Source of the DNA: an uncultured Flavobacteriales bacterium
GTDB taxonomy: Bacteria > Bacteroidota > Bacteroidia > Flavobacteriales_G > Salibacteraceae
Direction: 5' to 3'
Assembly: GCA_913020435.1 (NCBI GenBank)
Contig: CAJVZZ010000022.1
Location: forward strand, 1-42,626
Length of the DNA: 42,626 nucleotides
Below the pieces are notes generated by a model. The model searched no databases. It was not told the origin of the DNA and was given only the letters and a program-made list of their open reading frames with translations. Position numbers and translations under genes: made by a program. Shown in pieces: positions 8,087 through 39,472 of this stretch (the stretch's first letter is position 1; the number at the start of each line of letters is the position of its first letter).

Positions 8087-8117
8087 GTTTTTAGTTTTTC
8101 AACAGATTTTAACGTGG

Positions 8118-8125
8118 CAAAAATA
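8118..8125 (-). promoter_or_regulatory. Bacteroidota -7 promoter box for asnS
   Basis: Minus strand TATTTTTG matches TAnnTTTG fully, 31 bases upstream of the asnS ATG. No clear -33 TTG is seen at the usual distance. Confidence 0.5.
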
Positions 8126-8352
8126 ACTGTTTGGAAGGGTTGGGCATTCTGTTCTTGTCTCAATTGAATTGTTTTTGGTTATAATATCCTTCCCAACCGA
8201 GAAGTTCATGAAGCACAAAGCGGAAGGAGATTTAGTACCGGTAATTTTTATTTGGAAAAACCCTTCACTCACCTAACACTAACTTCACCGTATGATAGGA
8301 GCCATGAGACTCCGCCCACGCAAAGACAAGTTTATTACTAAAAACAAAGAAA
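8126..8352. other. Non-coding spacer between asnS and the efflux operon
   Basis: The 336-base gap between asnS and tetR holds the asnS -7 box on the left and the tetR operator/promoter region on the right. The middle has a stopless plus-strand stretch at about 8169-8338 without an ATG and without recognisable protein similarity. No RNA gene or terminator was seen. Confidence 0.4.
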
Positions 8353-8397
8353 CTTTGGAAACGAAAGAAACTATTTAATTCAAAAACGTTTCCAAAG
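8349..8397. promoter_or_regulatory. Candidate operator: spaced inverted repeat upstream of tetR
   Basis: CTTTGGAAACG at 8353-8363 and CGTTTCCAAAG at 8387-8397 are perfect 11-base inverted arms separated by 23 bases. The left arm also belongs to three GAAAC copies at 8349, 8358 and 8367, spaced exactly 9 bases apart. The right arm ends 13 bases before the -7 box at 8411, so protein bound there would cover the upstream promoter region. Autoregulation by the adjacent TetR protein is an inference. Confidence 0.55.
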
Positions 8398-8410
8398 GTT
8401 TTTTTAAAGA

Positions 8411-8418
8411 TACATTTG
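8411..8418 (+). promoter_or_regulatory. -7 promoter box of the tetR-efflux operon
   Basis: TACATTTG is a full match to TAnnTTTG. Only four bases (CACC) separate it from the GTG at 8423. This implies that transcription starts at or next to the start codon and that the mRNA is leaderless. Confidence 0.6.
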
Positions 8419-8422
8419 CACC

Positions 8423-9043
8423 GTGGAAAAAATAGACGACAAGTTTCAACAAATTTTAATTGGTGCACTGAACGTATTTATGAAGTACGGAATACGCAGT
8501 GTTACAATGGATGATCTCGCCCGTCACCTAGGTATTTCTAAAAAAACAATCTACAAATACGTAAGCGATAAAAAAGAATTGGTATTGAAGGGAATGGAAT
8601 ACCATCACCAATTGGAAGTTTGTGCAATTGATGCTTGTGTTCAACAAAAATTAAATGCTATCGACGAGAACTTTGAGATTTCTAAAGTAATTGTTGACCA
8701 GCTGAAAAACGTTCATCCCTCAGTAATGTACGATATTCAAAAATATTATCCAGAGGCCATGGCCAGCTTTCAGGAATACAAAATGACTGTTGTTAAGGAT
8801 TGGGTTTCTTCAAATATGGAACGAGGAATTGATCAAGGTCTATATCGAAACGATTTAAATATTCCAATTTTAACAGGAGTCTACTTAGCAAGAATGGACG
8901 ATTTCTTTAATCGGGATTTATATCCACAAGAAGTCCCCTTTGCTGATATTTATCTAGAAACCTTTAGATACCACATTCGCGGGCTAGCATCAGAAAAAGG
9001 TATTAAATACCTAAAAGAAAAAGTTAAAAAACACTCAAACTAA
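8423..9043 (+). CDS. TetR/AcrR family transcriptional regulator
   Basis: This 206-residue regulator carries an N-terminal TetR helix-turn-helix (about residues 10-56), with IRSVTMDDLARHLGISKKTIYKYVSDKKELV as the recognition segment; the C-terminal ligand domain is variable, as usual. The start is GTG at 8423, which matches the length of the family. It is the first gene of an operon with tolC (8 bases downstream), the membrane fusion protein and the RND pump, so it most likely represses that pump. The inverted repeat at 8353-8397 is the candidate target. The inducing ligand cannot be told from sequence. Confidence 0.93.
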   Translation: MEKIDDKFQQILIGALNVFMKYGIRSVTMDDLARHLGISKKTIYKYVSDKKELVLKGMEYHHQLEVCAIDACVQQKLNAIDENFEISKVIVDQLKNVHPSVMYDIQKYYPEAMASFQEYKMTVVKDWVSSNMERGIDQGLYRNDLNIPILTGVYLARMDDFFNRDLYPQEVPFADIYLETFRYHIRGLASEKGIKYLKEKVKKHSN

Positions 9044-19430: not shown

Positions 19431-20384
19431 TTAATGAAAAGAACTATTCAATGCTCCTTGTCCGTTTCCCGGAGCCTCCAACTCAATTGTTACGTGTTCA
19501 ATTCCTTTTTCAGCAAATAGTTTTCGTATTTCACATTTTAACCATTCGCTCTTTCCTAAATCAAACTCAGCGACATAAAACACGTGCAGACTAGCTATAT
19601 TAAACTCACCATCCAATGACCAAACATGTAAATCATTTACTTCTCTAACACCTTCAATTTTAAGAGCCAAATTTTGAATCTCGTGAACATTGACATCGTT
19701 TGGAATCGCTTGCAAAAAAATATGCATAATAGATTTTAAATTCTTAAGCGCATTAAACAAAATGTAACCAGCAATCAGCATTGAAAGAATAGGGTCAAGA
19801 ATGTACCAATTGGTAAAATAAATAATGATCGAAGCAACTAAAACCGCACCCCATCCCAGCACATCCTCAAGCAAATGAAGCATTACAGTCCGTTGATTCA
19901 ATGATTTTGAATTACTGCGTAAACGCAAAACAGCTATTCCATTCATAATCACACCCAATATAGCAAAGCCAATCATTCCTAAACCATTTACCTCTTCCGG
20001 CGCCAAAAGCCTGGGAATAGTTTGGGTAATTATCACTACAGACCCGGTAGTTAAAATAACCACATTTAGCAATGCCGCTAGTGTCGATAATCTGCGATAT
20101 CCATAACTGAATTGATTATCGCGTTTTTTATCCGAAAGTTTTTCAAAATAATATGCTGCACCAATAGCTAAGGTATCTCCAAGGTCATGGATTGCATCGG
20201 ATAGAATTGCGATTGAATTGGTCATTAACCCCCCAATAATTTCAATGATCGTAAAACTAAGGTTAAGAAAAAAGGCGACTTTAAGGTTTTTGGTGATCGG
20301 GTGGACATGCACTCCTGATTGATGATGACCGTGATCATTGTCGTGCGAACAGCCTTCTTTATGCTTATGGGGGTGATCTGCCAT
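19431..20384 (-). CDS. Cation diffusion facilitator (CzcD/ZitB-like metal exporter)
   Basis: The 317-residue exporter has a His-rich N-terminus (residues 4-30, with HKHKEGCSHD and GHHQSGVHVH) for metal binding, six membrane helices, and a C-terminal cytoplasmic domain (about residues 225-310). The transport site is present: D-A-I-H-D-L-G-D in TM2 and H-L-L-E-D in TM5, as in Zn/Co/Cd exporters. It probably exports Zn2+ or related ions from the cytoplasm in exchange for protons; the exact metal is inferred. A -7 box at 20392-20399 sits 7 bases before the ATG. It stands alone and faces away from the decayed sigma gene. Confidence 0.94.
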   Translation of the reverse strand: MADHPHKHKEGCSHDNDHGHHQSGVHVHPITKNLKVAFFLNLSFTIIEIIGGLMTNSIAILSDAIHDLGDTLAIGAAYYFEKLSDKKRDNQFSYGYRRLSTLAALLNVVILTTGSVVIITQTIPRLLAPEEVNGLGMIGFAILGVIMNGIAVLRLRSNSKSLNQRTVMLHLLEDVLGWGAVLVASIIIYFTNWYILDPILSMLIAGYILFNALKNLKSIMHIFLQAIPNDVNVHEIQNLALKIEGVREVNDLHVWSLDGEFNIASLHVFYVAEFDLGKSEWLKCEIRKLFAEKGIEHVTIELEAPGNGQGALNSSFH

Positions 20385-22037: not shown

Positions 22038-22045
22038 CAAAACTA
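22038..22045 (-). promoter_or_regulatory. -7 promoter box of the bacilliredoxin gene
   Basis: Minus strand TAGTTTTG fits TAnnTTTG fully, 21 bases before the ATG at 22016. It lies in the short gap after pyk. Confidence 0.45.
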
Positions 22046-27380: not shown

Positions 27381-27388
27381 CAAAAATA
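27381..27388 (-). promoter_or_regulatory. -7 promoter box of pheS
   Basis: Minus strand TATTTTTG matches TAnnTTTG, 13 bases before the ATG at 27367. Confidence 0.45.
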
Positions 27389-28655: not shown

Positions 28656-28751
28656 AATTGGACACAAAAGTGTGTTGAATCTTCTGGTTTTATTGTTAGA
28701 AATACATAAATACCGCTTGTTTTTACTCGTATTATGACCATTTCCAGTACT

Positions 28752-28759
28752 TATATTTG
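28752..28759 (+). promoter_or_regulatory. -7 promoter box of moaA
   Basis: TATATTTG is a full match to TAnnTTTG, separated by only four bases (CAGG) from ATG 28764. It falls inside the first codons of the longer moaA frame starting at 28734, which argues for the 28764 start. Confidence 0.6.
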
Positions 28760-28763
28760 CAGG

Positions 28764-29804
28764 ATGCACAATGAGCTCGAAACATATTCTACTTTAGAGA
28801 ACACTTCAGCGAATAACCTAACTGATTCTTTTAACCGAGAACACACCTATTTGCGCATTTCATTAATTGAAAAATGCAACTTGCGATGCACTTATTGTAT
28901 GCCTGCAGAAGGAGTAGGCTTGTCTCCTCCCGATTCAATAATGAGTGCAAATGAAGTCCTTGAAATTGCCAAAACGTTTGTAAATTCTGGTGTAACTAAA
29001 ATCCGATTAACTGGTGGGGAGCCACTATTAAGAAAAGACTTTGAACTTATATACAAAGGCTTAGCCGAACTTCCCGCTGAAATTGGCATTACTACAAACG
29101 CTGTTCTTTTAGATAAATACCTGTCTCTATTTAAAGAGAAAGGGATGAAGAGCATCAACATAAGTTTGGATACTCTGAACAAAAAAAAGTTTTCTGATGT
29201 TACTCGACGAGATCAATTTGATCGAGTAATGAAAAATATTTACGCTTCATTAAATGCTGGTATTCAGCCAAGAATTAATGTTGTGTTGCTCCGGGATTTT
29301 AATGAAAATGAAATCAACGATTTTATTGAGCTAACAAAAGATTTGCCTTTAGTTGTTCGGTTTATTGAATTCATGCCGTTTGAAGGAAATGAATGGAAGA
29401 CCGAAAAACTGGTTCCTATGGCAAGTATCCTTCAAAACGTTGCTGAACATTTTGAAGGAAATAAAATTGAACGCATTCAAGATAAACCAAACGATACTTC
29501 CAAAAACTACCGAATTAAAGGTTTCATTGGGAGCTTTTCCATTATAAGCACTGTAACAAATCCGTTTTGTGATTCGTGTAATAGAATTCGGTTAACAGCA
29601 AACGGAACCATTAAAAACTGCTTGTTTTCTGAGGATGAAGTAAATATTCTTAAAGTCTTTCGAAAAAATGAGCCAATAATGCCTGTAGTCAAAATGGCGC
29701 TTGGAAAGAAACACCGAATGCGCGGCGGAATGGATACTCTAGAAGAGTTCTCTGATCCAAAAAAGAATCAGGCTAATCGTAGCATGATTTTGATTGGTGG
29801 GTAA
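28764..29804 (+). CDS. moaA: GTP 3',8-cyclase, molybdenum cofactor biosynthesis
   Basis: This radical SAM enzyme carries out the first step of molybdopterin synthesis, from GTP. The N-terminal cluster motif is KCNLRCTYCMPAEG (CxxxCxxC). The TGGEPLLRKDFE segment contacts SAM, and the second Fe-S cluster motif is FCDSCNRIRLTANGTIKNCL in the C-terminal domain. With ATG 28764 it is 346 residues, beginning MHNELETYSTLENTS; a longer start at 28734 adds 10 residues but overlaps the promoter box. It lacks the usual two C-terminal glycines: the end is MILIGG, so Gly-Gly is in fact present. No other molybdenum-cofactor gene is in the window. Confidence 0.96.
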   Translation: MHNELETYSTLENTSANNLTDSFNREHTYLRISLIEKCNLRCTYCMPAEGVGLSPPDSIMSANEVLEIAKTFVNSGVTKIRLTGGEPLLRKDFELIYKGLAELPAEIGITTNAVLLDKYLSLFKEKGMKSINISLDTLNKKKFSDVTRRDQFDRVMKNIYASLNAGIQPRINVVLLRDFNENEINDFIELTKDLPLVVRFIEFMPFEGNEWKTEKLVPMASILQNVAEHFEGNKIERIQDKPNDTSKNYRIKGFIGSFSIISTVTNPFCDSCNRIRLTANGTIKNCLFSEDEVNILKVFRKNEPIMPVVKMALGKKHRMRGGMDTLEEFSDPKKNQANRSMILIGG

Positions 29805-34421: not shown

Positions 34422-34429
34422 CAAAGTTA
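34422..34429 (-). promoter_or_regulatory. -7 promoter box of the aldehyde dehydrogenase gene
   Basis: Minus strand TAACTTTG fits TAnnTTTG exactly, 17 bases before ATG 34404. It separates this gene from the unknown gene upstream. Confidence 0.45.
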
Positions 34430-35674: not shown

Positions 35675-35707
35675 TTGCTACTTATTTAAGCAAAAAACCA
35701 ACCTTTG
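35675..35707 (+). promoter_or_regulatory. Possible promoter of the CLC gene
   Basis: TTG at 35675-35677 and AACCTTTG at 35700-35707 (one mismatch from TAnnTTTG) are 22 bases apart. The box lies 7 bases before the ATG at 35715. Confidence 0.35.
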
Positions 35708-35714
35708 CGGCTCA

Positions 35715-37511
35715 ATGTTGCACTACCTAAAAAATTGGAATAAATACCTGAAAGCGTTCTTGTTGTGGAGAAGCCATAACATTAAGAATAAACCTTTTGT
35801 GCTTATTTTGAGTGTCTTAATGGGGTTTTTAAGTGCTGTTGGAGCCTATTGCTTAAAACAAAGTGTCCACTTCGTAGAATCCTTCTTTGTAGATAATGTT
35901 ATCAAGCAAAGCGGATATGCCCTATATTTTTTGCTGCCTATTGTAGGAATCGCAATTGCCCGTCTTCTTATCAAGTACGTTATCAAAGAAGAGGTTGGGC
36001 ACGGTATTCCAAATACCCTTTATGCTTTAAGTAAAGGTAACGGAATGATTTCCAAAAAGAAAACCTACTCCTCAGTACTTACGGCCGCTTTTACGGTTGG
36101 GTTTGGTGGTTCATGTGGACTAGAGGGTCCTGCAGTTGGCACTACCTCTGCTATTGGTTCTAATTTGAGTAAAGCATTAAGACTTAACCAAAAAACACGA
36201 AAACTATTAATCGGTTGTGGCGCAGCAGCAGCACTTTCAGCAATTTTTAAAGCACCCGTTGCAGCCATTGTATTTGCAATGGAAGTAATTCTCCTAGACA
36301 TTACCACTTTCAGTTTAATCCCTTTATTACTTGCCAGTGTCACTGCAGCAATGTTTTCTAGGCTTTTCTTTGGAAATGACCTTCTTTTTCAGTTTCAAAT
36401 ACAAGAAAGCATACAGTTTATAGATATGCCTTTTTACATTCTTCTTGGTTTGCTAGGCGGGTTTGTAGGTGTCTATTTTACCAAAGTGAACTTCTTAGTC
36501 TCAAGGATTTTTGGTAAAATGAAAAAGCAACCCATAAAACTGCTGATCGGTGGGTTAATGCTTGGATTACTCATTTTCCTTTTCCCTCCGTTGTACGGTG
36601 AAGGTTATACTACCGTTTATCATTTAATAAGTGGAAACACCTCAATGGTTCTTGAGAATAGTCAACTAGAGGGTCTTACAGACAATATTTGGGTGATTCT
36701 TGGATTCCTTAGCTTGGTAATATTTTTCAAAGCTTTTGCCACTTCAATAACATTTAGCGCTGGGGGTGTGGGTGGGATTTTTGCGCCTACATTATTCATG
36801 GGAAGTATTATGGGTTTTGTTTTTTCAAAATTTATTAACCTAATAGGTTTAAGTAAACTTTCAGAGGCTAATTTTTCATTGGTCGGAATGGCAGCACTTA
36901 TGGCTGGAATTCTTCAAGCTCCGCTTACAGCCATTTTCTTAATTGCGGAAATTACTGGTGGCTATGAGTTATTCATTCCCCTTATGCTAGCCACATCAAT
37001 TAGCTATTTGACCGTCAAATATTTTACCGAGCACTCAATATATACTGCTCAACTAGCCAAACGCGGTGATCTCATTACCCACGATAAAGATCAGGCAGTG
37101 CTTACTTTAATGGATTTGAAAGAGGAAATTGAGCGCAATTTCAGAAAGGTTAAACCCTACGATACACTAGGGAACTTGGTTAAGGAAGTAACTAAGAGTA
37201 AAAGAAACCTCTTTCCTGTAGTCGATAAGGATGGTCTGTTTTTAGGAGTTGTTACATTAGACGAAATTCGAGAAATCATGTTTGATAGAGCTAAATACGA
37301 AACCACCCTAGTGCACGAACTCATGCAGATGGCTCCTGAGCACATCGAAACCACCGATGGCATGCGTAAAGTAATGGAAAAGTTTGAGTCAAGCGGTGCA
37401 TGGAATTTACCTGTGGTACAGCAAGGAAAGTATATCGGTTTTGTTTCTAAATCTAGGTTGTATTCTGAATATAGAAAACGATTAAAAGACTTCTACCAAG
37501 GAGTAGATTAG
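35715..37511 (+). CDS. CLC-type chloride channel/antiporter with C-terminal CBS domains
   Basis: The 598-residue protein has the CLC membrane core (about residues 25-440) and a pair of CBS domains (about 470-590). Selectivity-filter segments are GHGIP at 95-99 (His where E. coli ClC has Ser107), GSCGLEGPAVG with the gating glutamate at E137, and GGVGGIFAPTLFMGS. The inner proton glutamate (E203 of E. coli ClC-ec1) aligns with V191 in FAMEVILLD, so it may be channel-like or uncoupled rather than a standard Cl-/H+ exchanger. The CBS pair probably senses nucleotides. Its stop overlaps the dnaG stop by 4 bases. Confidence 0.94.
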   Translation: MLHYLKNWNKYLKAFLLWRSHNIKNKPFVLILSVLMGFLSAVGAYCLKQSVHFVESFFVDNVIKQSGYALYFLLPIVGIAIARLLIKYVIKEEVGHGIPNTLYALSKGNGMISKKKTYSSVLTAAFTVGFGGSCGLEGPAVGTTSAIGSNLSKALRLNQKTRKLLIGCGAAAALSAIFKAPVAAIVFAMEVILLDITTFSLIPLLLASVTAAMFSRLFFGNDLLFQFQIQESIQFIDMPFYILLGLLGGFVGVYFTKVNFLVSRIFGKMKKQPIKLLIGGLMLGLLIFLFPPLYGEGYTTVYHLISGNTSMVLENSQLEGLTDNIWVILGFLSLVIFFKAFATSITFSAGGVGGIFAPTLFMGSIMGFVFSKFINLIGLSKLSEANFSLVGMAALMAGILQAPLTAIFLIAEITGGYELFIPLMLATSISYLTVKYFTEHSIYTAQLAKRGDLITHDKDQAVLTLMDLKEEIERNFRKVKPYDTLGNLVKEVTKSKRNLFPVVDKDGLFLGVVTLDEIREIMFDRAKYETTLVHELMQMAPEHIETTDGMRKVMEKFESSGAWNLPVVQQGKYIGFVSKSRLYSEYRKRLKDFYQGVD

Positions 37512-39472
37512 TTAATTATAATTCGACCCGATGGCTTTGAAAGTGAACTAACAATCTGATTGAGTGTTATTTGTTCTTTTTGTAATAGCATAGCCTTATC
37601 GATATCTCCAGACTCTTGAGCCGTTTTCATTTCCTTTTGGTTATCGAAAATCATTTTCGCTACGTTTTTAAGCTTAAAGGCATATATCGAACCTTCAACT
37701 GCTCTTTTTAATTTATCCTCTTCCGAAGGAACAATAATCTGGTGCTTGTCCCAGGCGTGCAATTCATATCGAGAAGCCAGTAATTCTGCCGTGATTCCGC
37801 TTACGTTAACATCTGAATGGTTAATGATATCGGAAATGTTCCAATTATCATCTCCTAACATAGCTTCAATCTTTTCTAGAAGAATAGCAAACTCAGGTTT
37901 TGAAAACTCCATTTCATCGCGTTGAATTTCATGCACAATAAACTGGGCAACATTTACCTCTACTTCCTCCTTCGCTTCGTTCAAAAATGTGATATTCTTA
38001 TCTCCATAATTGAGTAAAATTCGAAGTAGATCCTTTTCTTGATCGTCAATATTATCGCCAAGTCCAACCTTTTTGTCTTGTTGGTCTCCTTCGAAGTCAT
38101 AGCCAGCTTCTTCAGGTGGCATTTCCGAAGGAGCACCATAGCCTTTATTCTTATCCGCATGGTTCTTCCTCCGAATTTTATTCAATTCATTGATCAGAAC
38201 CTTTTCTGGCACATCAAGAAGAGTAGAACACTCTTTAATATACACTGAGCGAGATATCTCTTCTGGAATCAGGGCAATGGTAGATACAATGTCTTTTATT
38301 AGCCCAGCGCGCTTTATAGGGTCGTTTCCGGTGTCAGAAAGTAATAGGCTCGTTTTAGTAACAATAAAATCCTTGGCATTATCATTTAAATACGATTGAA
38401 TGTCTTCAATATCATTTGCTTTGGCAAATGAATCTGGATCTTCTCCTTCTGGAAAGGTCACCATTTTCACATTCATCCCTTCTTCAAGAATCATATCAAT
38501 TCCTCGAAAAGAAGCGCGAATACCCGCAGCATCACCATCATATAACAACGTAATACTATTTGTATATCGCTTTATAAGCTTTATCTGATCTTGAGTCAAT
38601 GCAGTTCCAGAAGAAGAAACCACATTCTTAATTCCGGATTGATACAGTTGAATAACGTCAGTATAACCCTCAACTAAATAACAATTGTCCTCTTTTATTA
38701 TTTCTCCCTTGGCGAAATAAATTCCATAGAGCACGGCGCTCTTATTGTAGATAAGAGACTCAGGACTATTTAGATATTTCGGAACTTTTTTATCCGTAAG
38801 TAATGTCCTAGCACCAAAACCAAGAGGCCTTCCTGATAGATTATGAATCGGAAATATTACTCTGCCTTTGAATCCATCATAGTACTTATGATCTCCCTTA
38901 GGAGATTTTTTTATAAGGCCACTTGACTCCAGGAATTGCTCCTGATATCCATTATCTATTGCTGTTTTATAAAAATACTCCCAATCATTCTTAGCATAAC
39001 CCAGCTTAAATTTATCTATTGTCTCTTCAGTAAAGCCTCGCTCCTTAAAGTACCCAAGCCCAATTGACTTTCCTTCGTCAGAATCGTGCAAATTTTCTTG
39101 AAAATGCTTTTGACCGTATTCAGTAACTATGTAAAGACTCTCGCGCTCGCTTTCGGCTTGTTTTTGCTCGTCGGATTGCTCCTCCTCTTCCAGTTCAATG
39201 TTGTAGCGTTTGGCTAAAAAACGAAGCGCTTCAGGGAAGGTGAAGTGTTCGTGTTCCATTAGAAAGGTAGCTACGTTACCTCCTTTACCCGAACTAAAAT
39301 CTTTAAAGATTTGTTTTTCGGGGACAACATAAAACGAAGGTGTCTTTTCATTAGCAAAAGGACTCAAACCTTTATACTGCCTTCCTGATTTTTTGATATT
39401 TACAAAGTCAGCAATGACATCCTCAATTTGAGCAGTCATTAATATTTCATCAACTTTGTGTTTTGGAATCAT
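37508..39472 (-). CDS. dnaG: DNA primase without zinc ligands
   Basis: The 654-residue primase makes RNA primers at the replication fork. The order is an N-terminal CHC2-like domain (about residues 1-100), the TOPRIM catalytic core (about 255-345, with LVEGYTDVIQLYQ and LLYDGDAAGIRA), and a C-terminal DnaB-binding region (about 440-654). All four zinc ligands of the CHC2 finger are replaced while the spacing is kept: S37, A40, D58 and S61 in KGLSPFANEK and KDFSSGKGG. I recall the same change in other flavobacterial DnaG sequences, so it is likely a lineage trait. A -7 box lies 6 bases before the ATG. Confidence 0.97.
   Translation of the reverse strand: MIPKHKVDEILMTAQIEDVIADFVNIKKSGRQYKGLSPFANEKTPSFYVVPEKQIFKDFSSGKGGNVATFLMEHEHFTFPEALRFLAKRYNIELEEEEQSDEQKQAESERESLYIVTEYGQKHFQENLHDSDEGKSIGLGYFKERGFTEETIDKFKLGYAKNDWEYFYKTAIDNGYQEQFLESSGLIKKSPKGDHKYYDGFKGRVIFPIHNLSGRPLGFGARTLLTDKKVPKYLNSPESLIYNKSAVLYGIYFAKGEIIKEDNCYLVEGYTDVIQLYQSGIKNVVSSSGTALTQDQIKLIKRYTNSITLLYDGDAAGIRASFRGIDMILEEGMNVKMVTFPEGEDPDSFAKANDIEDIQSYLNDNAKDFIVTKTSLLLSDTGNDPIKRAGLIKDIVSTIALIPEEISRSVYIKECSTLLDVPEKVLINELNKIRRKNHADKNKGYGAPSEMPPEEAGYDFEGDQQDKKVGLGDNIDDQEKDLLRILLNYGDKNITFLNEAKEEVEVNVAQFIVHEIQRDEMEFSKPEFAILLEKIEAMLGDDNWNISDIINHSDVNVSGITAELLASRYELHAWDKHQIIVPSEEDKLKRAVEGSIYAFKLKNVAKMIFDNQKEMKTAQESGDIDKAMLLQKEQITLNQIVSSLSKPSGRIIIN

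Follow-up and report, generated by a model that had tools for sequence, protein, structure and literature searches.

A probable class of leaderless mRNAs marked by promoter boxes adjoining the start codon in an uncultured Flavobacteriales bacterium

Two genes of an uncultured Flavobacteriales bacterium, a tetR-family regulator gene and moaA, are separated by only four bases from a promoter box of the Bacteroidota type. It is highly likely, judging from the sequence and from published promoter spacings, that the mRNAs of both genes start on the start codon itself and that these genes are members of a discrete leaderless class, kept among relatives, that also includes dnaG and a cation diffusion facilitator (CDF) gene. 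Bacteroidota ribosomes hardly rely on Shine-Dalgarno pairing. The observations behind this reading are the position of the boxes, the excess of such positions over chance, the promoter-like composition of the boxes, their conservation and a bias in the start codons that follow them.

Boxes and gaps in the window

Within the window (i.e., the whole 42,626-nucleotide stretch of DNA analysed here), the tetR-family regulator gene (8423-9043, plus strand) is preceded by an exact Bacteroidota -7 promoter box, TACATTTG, at 8411-8418. The four bases between this box and the GTG start codon (8423-8425), namely CACC (8419-8422), are predicted to be untranscribed, based on the 4-5 base spacing between box and start site in available data for F. 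johnsoniae (PMC6847099), so that the GTG would form the 5' end of the mRNA. The moaA box, TATATTTG (28752-28759, plus strand), is likewise followed by four bases, CAGG, and then by the ATG (28764) with which moaA (28764-29804, plus strand; TIGR02666, 323 bits against a cut-off of 284) is predicted to begin without a leader. An earlier note on this DNA had claimed the same four-base gap for these two genes, which is exact, as well as gaps of 6 and 7 bases for dnaG and the CDF gene, respectively, which the coordinates bear out: the dnaG box, TAGCTTTG, occupies 39486-39479 (minus strand) before the ATG at 39472 of a gene spanning 37508-39472 (TIGR01391, 422 bits against a cut-off of 284), and the CDF-gene box, TACCTTTG, occupies 20399-20392 (minus strand) before the ATG at 20384 of a gene spanning 19431-20384 (PF01545, 145 bits). 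The tetR, moaA and CDF boxes fit the form TAHHTTTG, with few G at the H positions; the dnaG box has a G within the corresponding NN, which promoter boxes usually avoid.

A fifth gene, of the CLC type, had been put forward by the same note as a weaker case. (Its name was assigned by eye, as were those of asnS, pheS and an aldehyde dehydrogenase.) Its gap is indeed 7 bases, but the pseudo-box, AACCTTTG (35700-35707, plus strand), departs from the consensus in being without the first T and the gene caller put the start elsewhere, at 35820; the case is unsupported and was excluded. Conversely, the note's list did not contain those window genes whose box lies at leader distance and which serve here for comparison. 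Their boxes, all on the minus strand, lie at 27381-27388 (gap 13, gene start 27367; the gap is 13 in the related genomes G033, G032 and G034 as well, and 17 in G008), at 34422-34429 (gap 17, gene start 34404), at 22038-22045 (gap 21, gene start 22016) and at 8118-8125 (gap 31, gene start 8086, divergent from tetR). A short gap is thus found in four of the eight called window genes that have an exact box at most 60 bases from the start.

For moaA, automatic annotation may pick the wrong start: the mechanically defined open reading frame reaches an ATG at 28734, 30 bases upstream, and the added stretch (28734-28763) spans the promoter box. The corresponding sequences of G034 and G009 are divergent, with identities of 0.32 and 0.38, respectively, over 60 bases.

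The tetR locus

The product of the tetR-family gene contains a TetR_N domain (PF00440, 41.6 bits against a cut-off of 24, residues 11-55), and the gene leads a run of TolC-like, membrane-fusion and RND-permease-like genes, of which the membrane-fusion match scores above its NCBIfam curated cut-off and the TolC and RND matches below theirs. Just upstream of the box lies an inverted repeat with 18-nt arms that are 89% complementary (8346-8363 and 8387-8404, plus strand) and with a GGAAAC/GTTTCC core that, by eye, recurs in many tetR loci of the family. The repeat as a whole (8346-8404) is likely to be a TetR operator sitting beside the promoter, and from this arrangement self-repression of a tetR-headed efflux operon is plausible.

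Distribution of gaps across the genome

The genome (2.95 Mb in 50 contigs) was sampled by combining the window with 40 stretches of 20 kb each, or 842,626 bases in total. Genes were called using a simple procedure that is based on codon usage and that is blind to upstream signals; of the 674 genes called, 646 were used, the others being dropped either because their starts were cut by the end of a stretch or because too little upstream sequence was available. Distances between TAnnTTTG and the start codon are two-peaked, with a sharp peak at exactly 4 bases and a broad, leadered peak from about 14 to 30 bases: there are 17 genes at a gap of 4, 6 at 5, 1 at 6, 6 at 7, 4 at 8, 2 at 9, 4 at 10, 1, 1 and 2 at 11, 12 and 13, respectively, and 31 at 14-19.

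Gaps of 4-7 bases occur in 30 of the 646 genes (window included), as compared with a mean of 1.17 and a maximum of 3 for 29 letter-permuted patterns. The earlier note had proposed such a count, and the peak at 4-7 bases, sharpest at 4, is found in both of two separate batches. In the first (window included) 13 of 342 genes have a gap of 4-7 and 6 of 342 a gap of 4; in the second (without the window) 16 of 303 genes have a gap of 4-7, against a permuted mean of 0.38 and maximum of 1, and 11 of 303 have a gap of 4. When only the 319 genes with unambiguous starts are counted, 12 have a gap of 4 and 16 a gap of 4-7, versus 0.52 expected for the latter. This geometry is well above chance and real. 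Once the permuted mean is subtracted, 28.8 of the 127.2 boxes lying at most 60 bases from a start (22.7%) have gaps of 4-7, which is a share of recognisable boxes and not of all genes (the gene share being 30/646). An A at position -3 is present in 47% of gap-4 genes versus 52% of leadered genes, a difference that is weak and, with 17 genes, unclear.

A raw count over the whole genome was rejected as evidence: TAnnTTTG-N4-ATG occurs 72 times, versus 61 times for the reversed pattern. Most of these unrestricted matches, we take it, sit inside genes; the gap-4 signal emerges only with called gene starts.

Promoter character of the boxes

In F. johnsoniae, the available promoter data show that G is avoided at both N positions of the box (PMC6847099). 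Within the sets pooled here, a G is found in the NN of 4 of 48 gap-4 boxes, 12 of 102 boxes at gaps of 4-8 and 38 of 416 leadered boxes, whereas boxes inside genes have one in 427 of 1047 cases. Short-gap boxes resemble promoters in this respect, not chance matches.

RNA-seq-predicted start sites of F. johnsoniae, as far as reported, lie mostly 4-5 bases past the G of the box, which thus occupies -12 to -5 (PMC6847099), as does the sigma-A box described for F. psychrophilum (PMC9723704). Because of this spacing in F. johnsoniae (PMC6847099), a gap of 4 would make the first base of the start codon the +1 position. The -33 TTTG element of sigma-ABfr promoters was not found by eye near 8390 for tetR; since this element is reported to be much less evident in F. 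johnsoniae (PMC6847099), it was not treated as required.

Start codons

Start codons were pooled from the genome itself, four other genomes of the family, G240 and the named loci described below, with G099 left out. At a gap of 4 there are 37 ATG, 11 GTG and 0 TTG starts (n = 48) and at gaps of 5-8 there are 52, 2 and 0, respectively; at gaps of 14-60 the corresponding numbers are 474, 19 and 29 (n = 522), and for genes lacking a box they are 1830, 100 and 175. In other words, TTG is used by none of the 102 genes at gaps of 4-8, as against 29 of the 522 genes at gaps of 14-60, and GTG is in excess at a gap of 4 relative to gaps of 14-60 (Fisher p = 8e-6, or 4e-4 when homologous families are weighted as one). 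Three of the 11 gap-4 GTG genes are rlmN homologs from loci with Flavobacteriaceae titles. Within the genome itself, GTG starts 4 of 17 genes at a gap of 4 versus 5 of 108 leadered genes (p = 0.02). In mycobacteria, according to the published account, an ATG or GTG at +1 is both necessary and sufficient for leaderless translation, and TTG and CTG are poor (PMC4633059). The matching start-codon signature in the present data points to a +1 located on the start codon and to acceptance of GUG in that place.

Conservation in relatives

A scripted search for TAnnTTTG or TAnnTTCG was applied to 30 tetR loci, from 30 of the 34 family genomes with a match. In 24 of the 30 it detects the box 4-11 bases ahead of an in-frame start (ATG or GTG); the gap is exactly 4 in eight loci, including all four genus members, and 4-7 in twelve. 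Three other loci have gaps of 16, 23 and 41 bases, and in three the script found no box. The no-box homologs include those of G011 and G012 (L068 and L069), which by eye have a longer leader with AAAGGAG--a Shine-Dalgarno-like sequence, of a kind little used in this phylum.

For 12 of the genome's own genes at gaps of 4-8, syntenic blocks could be compared with G032, a member of the same genus, in which the gap is the same (within one base) for ten and not for two; in G032 the tetR box has TTCG. The moaA box lies at a gap of 4 in G033, G032 and G009 and of 5 in G034; the dnaG box at a gap of 6 in G033 and G032 and of 5 in G027, being absent in G034; and the CDF box at a gap of 6 in G032 and G034. 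The gap is 4 for a DUF3109 gene in each of the five genomes compared and for uvrC, which starts with GTG, in each of the four.

A stricter comparison considers only pairs of homologs whose upstream regions have diverged (identity of at most 0.70). Among 19 such pairs representing 11 short-gap genes (i.e., own gaps of 4-8), the relative has a box at 4-9 bases in 13, whereas among 26 pairs for leadered genes none has a short box (Fisher p = 4e-7, with the qualification that the pairs are not independent), though 23 have some box and 14 have it at the same gap within one base. By gene, 8 of the 11 short-gap genes keep a short box in at least one relative and 3 keep none in any pair. For pairs with upstream identity above 0.70, a short box is kept in 12 of 14 short-gap pairs and is present in 0 of 2 leadered pairs. 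Own genes with gaps of 9-13 were left out of this comparison, an exact box was needed in the own genes and TAnnTTYG was allowed in relatives. Pairs were dropped if they were more than 95% or less than 45% identical, if the alignment began after residue 3, if coverage was low, if the relative lacked a start codon at that position or if upstream regions were duplicates. The relatives' stretches were picked around tetR, moaA and two of the genome's own stretches, L039 and L048 (both rich in short gaps), and search loci for tetR, moaA and other genes were included, a choice that enriches the pairs for short-gap genes. The pairs are homologs and not checked orthologs (the L020 pair, for example, is only 46% identical).

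From these comparisons, the leaderless or leadered state of a gene tends to be inherited. Not every short-gap case fits this pattern: the gene at L039 11706, with a gap of 4, is not conserved in three relatives within the genus and its box looks like a chance match, and, more generally, some of the short-gap cases without a kept box are either chance matches or lineage-specific. By the permuted patterns, about 1 in 25 members of the short-gap class (1.17 of 30) is expected to be there by chance.

Other Bacteroidota

In four other genomes of the family, 17 of 606 genes have gaps of 4-7, and in 11 of these the gap is exactly 4; permuted patterns average 1.38 at gaps of 4-7, with a maximum of 5. 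Named dnaG loci extend the survey: 47 with Flavobacteriaceae titles have gaps of 4-7 in 19 of 886 genes (net 10.0% of boxes within 60 bases) and 33 others in 20 of 443 genes (net 19.3%), with a permuted maximum of 5 in each case. The Flavobacteriaceae grouping was taken from record titles, some of them titles of MAGs, and the named loci all surround dnaG, so that they share neighbouring genes and are not independent. Three of 172 genes have gaps of 4-7 in G240 and none of 159 in G099 (another Bacteroidota family, L219-L228), where the exact box itself is undetectable above background near starts and promoters may have more degenerate boxes or sit farther from the gene. As a share of boxes within 60 bases, gaps of 4-7 account for 30 of 152 in the genome itself versus 19 of 215 in the Flavobacteriaceae-titled loci (Fisher p = 0.003). 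The rest of the family, at 17 of 125, does not differ from it (p = 0.20) and, for this reason, no short-gap share special to this genome is claimed.

Individual genes differ. The nearest box to dnaG lies at 4-8 bases in 6 of 80 named Bacteroidota loci and 54 of the 80 have no box; the short gap of dnaG is not general across the phylum. (Among the matches listed, which may omit records of this genome or of very near ones, the best-ranked named DnaG records are from Bacteroidetes and Flavobacteriales MAGs, at 49-52% identity.) Of 30 Bacteroidota homologs of rlmN (TIGR00048), on the other hand, 17 have their nearest box (TTYG allowed) at 4-8 bases, and three of those 17 start with GTG at a gap of 4; rlmN would make a good model for leaderless translation. 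The rlmN loci with short gaps include L151, L185, L132, L148, L158, L172 and L122. A polyprenyl-synthase-like gene, named by eye (L133, L161, L122, L167, L181 and others), has its nearest box at 3-8 bases in 15 of 37 homologs.

Proposed mechanism and alternative explanations

The start of transcription and the mode of translation are inferred from the position of the box combined with the published spacing of 4-5 bases. On this basis, tetR and moaA would be transcribed from a -7 box of the housekeeping sigma-ABfr type whose last G is at -5, so that the polymerase would begin with the G of GTG or the A of ATG, leaving no 5' untranslated region; and the ribosome would start on the 5'-terminal GUG or AUG without an upstream A-rich or Shine-Dalgarno signal. 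The dnaG and CDF mRNAs would carry only 2-3 leader bases. Such genes would constitute a class separate from that of leadered genes, whose box mostly lies at least 14 bases upstream. The earlier note had likewise placed the 5' end of these mRNAs at or beside the start codon. The gap peak, the spacing in F. johnsoniae, the retention of the box in 13 of 19 diverged homolog pairs and the lack of a nearby alternative start for tetR all support this placement of what are predicted 5' ends; the note was right regarding the geometry and, by the same sequence evidence, very probably regarding the mechanism.

The best surviving alternative, which we regard as improbable, is that the main transcript is leadered, arising from a second promoter further upstream, and that the adjacent box is minor or unused. 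Five boxes with one mismatch do occur, besides the exact one, in the 336 bases upstream of tetR. Against this, the only exact plus-strand TAnnTTTG box within 8087-8422 is that adjoining the tetR start, the adjacent box is kept while its flanks diverge and the boxes of the class have the NN composition of promoters. Less probable still is that the true start codon lies downstream, giving the mRNA an ordinary leader. A second ATG does occur in some tetR relatives, 9-15 bases inside the gene; however, in the gene considered here the fourth codon is ATA, no start codon other than the GTG occurs between the upstream in-frame stop and +57, and the next one, 57 bases downstream, lies within the TetR_N match; moreover, the gap-4 spike survives restriction to unambiguous starts.

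It is very unlikely that the adjacent box owes its retention to a regulatory role (such as being part of a repressor site) rather than to promoter function: the inverted repeat with its recurring core adjoins the tetR box and a weaker, overlapping 16-nt palindrome (81%) runs across it, but the arms of the strongest repeat stop at 8404, before the box, and the same geometry is found in the unrelated genes uvrC, rpe, DUF3109 and moaA. Just as unlikely is that AT-rich intergenic DNA yields these boxes by chance, as the near-equal unrestricted genome counts and the unconserved box at L039 might suggest, given the observed excess at gaps of 4-7, the conservation and the NN composition.

Leaderless initiation on the start codon thus being the preferred reading for tetR and moaA, a broader one may be entertained tentatively, though it is rather doubtful: that Bacteroidota possess a separate leaderless route obeying an AUG/GUG rule like that of mycobacteria, which here would serve about one fifth of box-bearing promoters, and that the state is inherited gene by gene, with genes seldom switching between states because leaders of about 5-9 nt are under-used. 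In the pooled sets, 23 genes have gaps of 9-13 versus 102 with gaps of 4-8.

Comparison with known systems

Published fractions of leaderless mRNAs within the phylum are low, as far as the available accounts go: 3.7% of 5' untranslated regions are shorter than 10 nt in B. thetaiotaomicron (PMC7366714), 5.5% of F. psychrophilum mRNAs are leaderless (PMC9723704) and 87% of predicted leaders in F. johnsoniae are longer than 10 nt (PMC6847099). These low fractions count against the explanation preferred here. The share found in the present genome is not, however, comparable with them, being a share of recognisable boxes here and of mapped transcripts there. A 2011 study, which predicted leaderless genes from Pribnow-like boxes, reported them for 1 of 37 Bacteroidetes/Chlorobi genomes; its authors pointed out that other promoter types would escape the method but did not expect large numbers (PMC3160421). 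A composition study from 2017 reported possible leaderless signals in the phylum, described there as not simply attributable to it (PMC5397173). In the open-licence literature searched, no description of the gap-4 spike, of the GTG excess or of gene-by-gene conservation was found for Bacteroidota, which does not prove that none exists. Against this published background, the predicted leaderless set adds a well-supported example to a known category and shows more order than the studies of the phylum cited here would lead one to expect.

How start codons are found in Bacteroidota without Shine-Dalgarno pairing is unsettled, and the accounts cited here treat leaderless mRNAs as too few to matter much. 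With its GTG excess, a conserved and sharply delimited set such as this one provides a concrete list of genes (tetR, moaA, uvrC, rpe, rlmN and others) for tests of leaderless initiation, and start-codon prediction in the phylum would gain from it.

The tetR gene of Tn1721 is a classical case of a leaderless repressor mRNA and is tetR-family like the gene described here, but has a different type of promoter and a different host. The Bacteroidota reports cited above (PMC7366714, PMC9723704, PMC6847099) concern the same box and the same phylum and establish that leaderless mRNAs or very short leaders exist; in them these form a small minority of mapped or predicted leaders, whereas here gaps of 4-7 bases make up about one fifth of recognisable boxes within 60 bases of starts. 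The leaderless RTG mRNAs of mycobacteria, as described, likewise have the start codon at +1 (predicted here) and use ATG and GTG but not TTG (PMC4633059); they differ in their sigma box, which here is TAnnTTTG, and in that leaderless translation is here a prediction, made for a phylum that hardly uses Shine-Dalgarno pairing. In Deinococcus-Thermus, a -10 region adjoining the open reading frame likewise gives rise to leaderless mRNA (PMC12340547), as is predicted here; both the phylum and the box are different, and there the arrangement is reported to be common and has been tested with reporters (PMC12340547).
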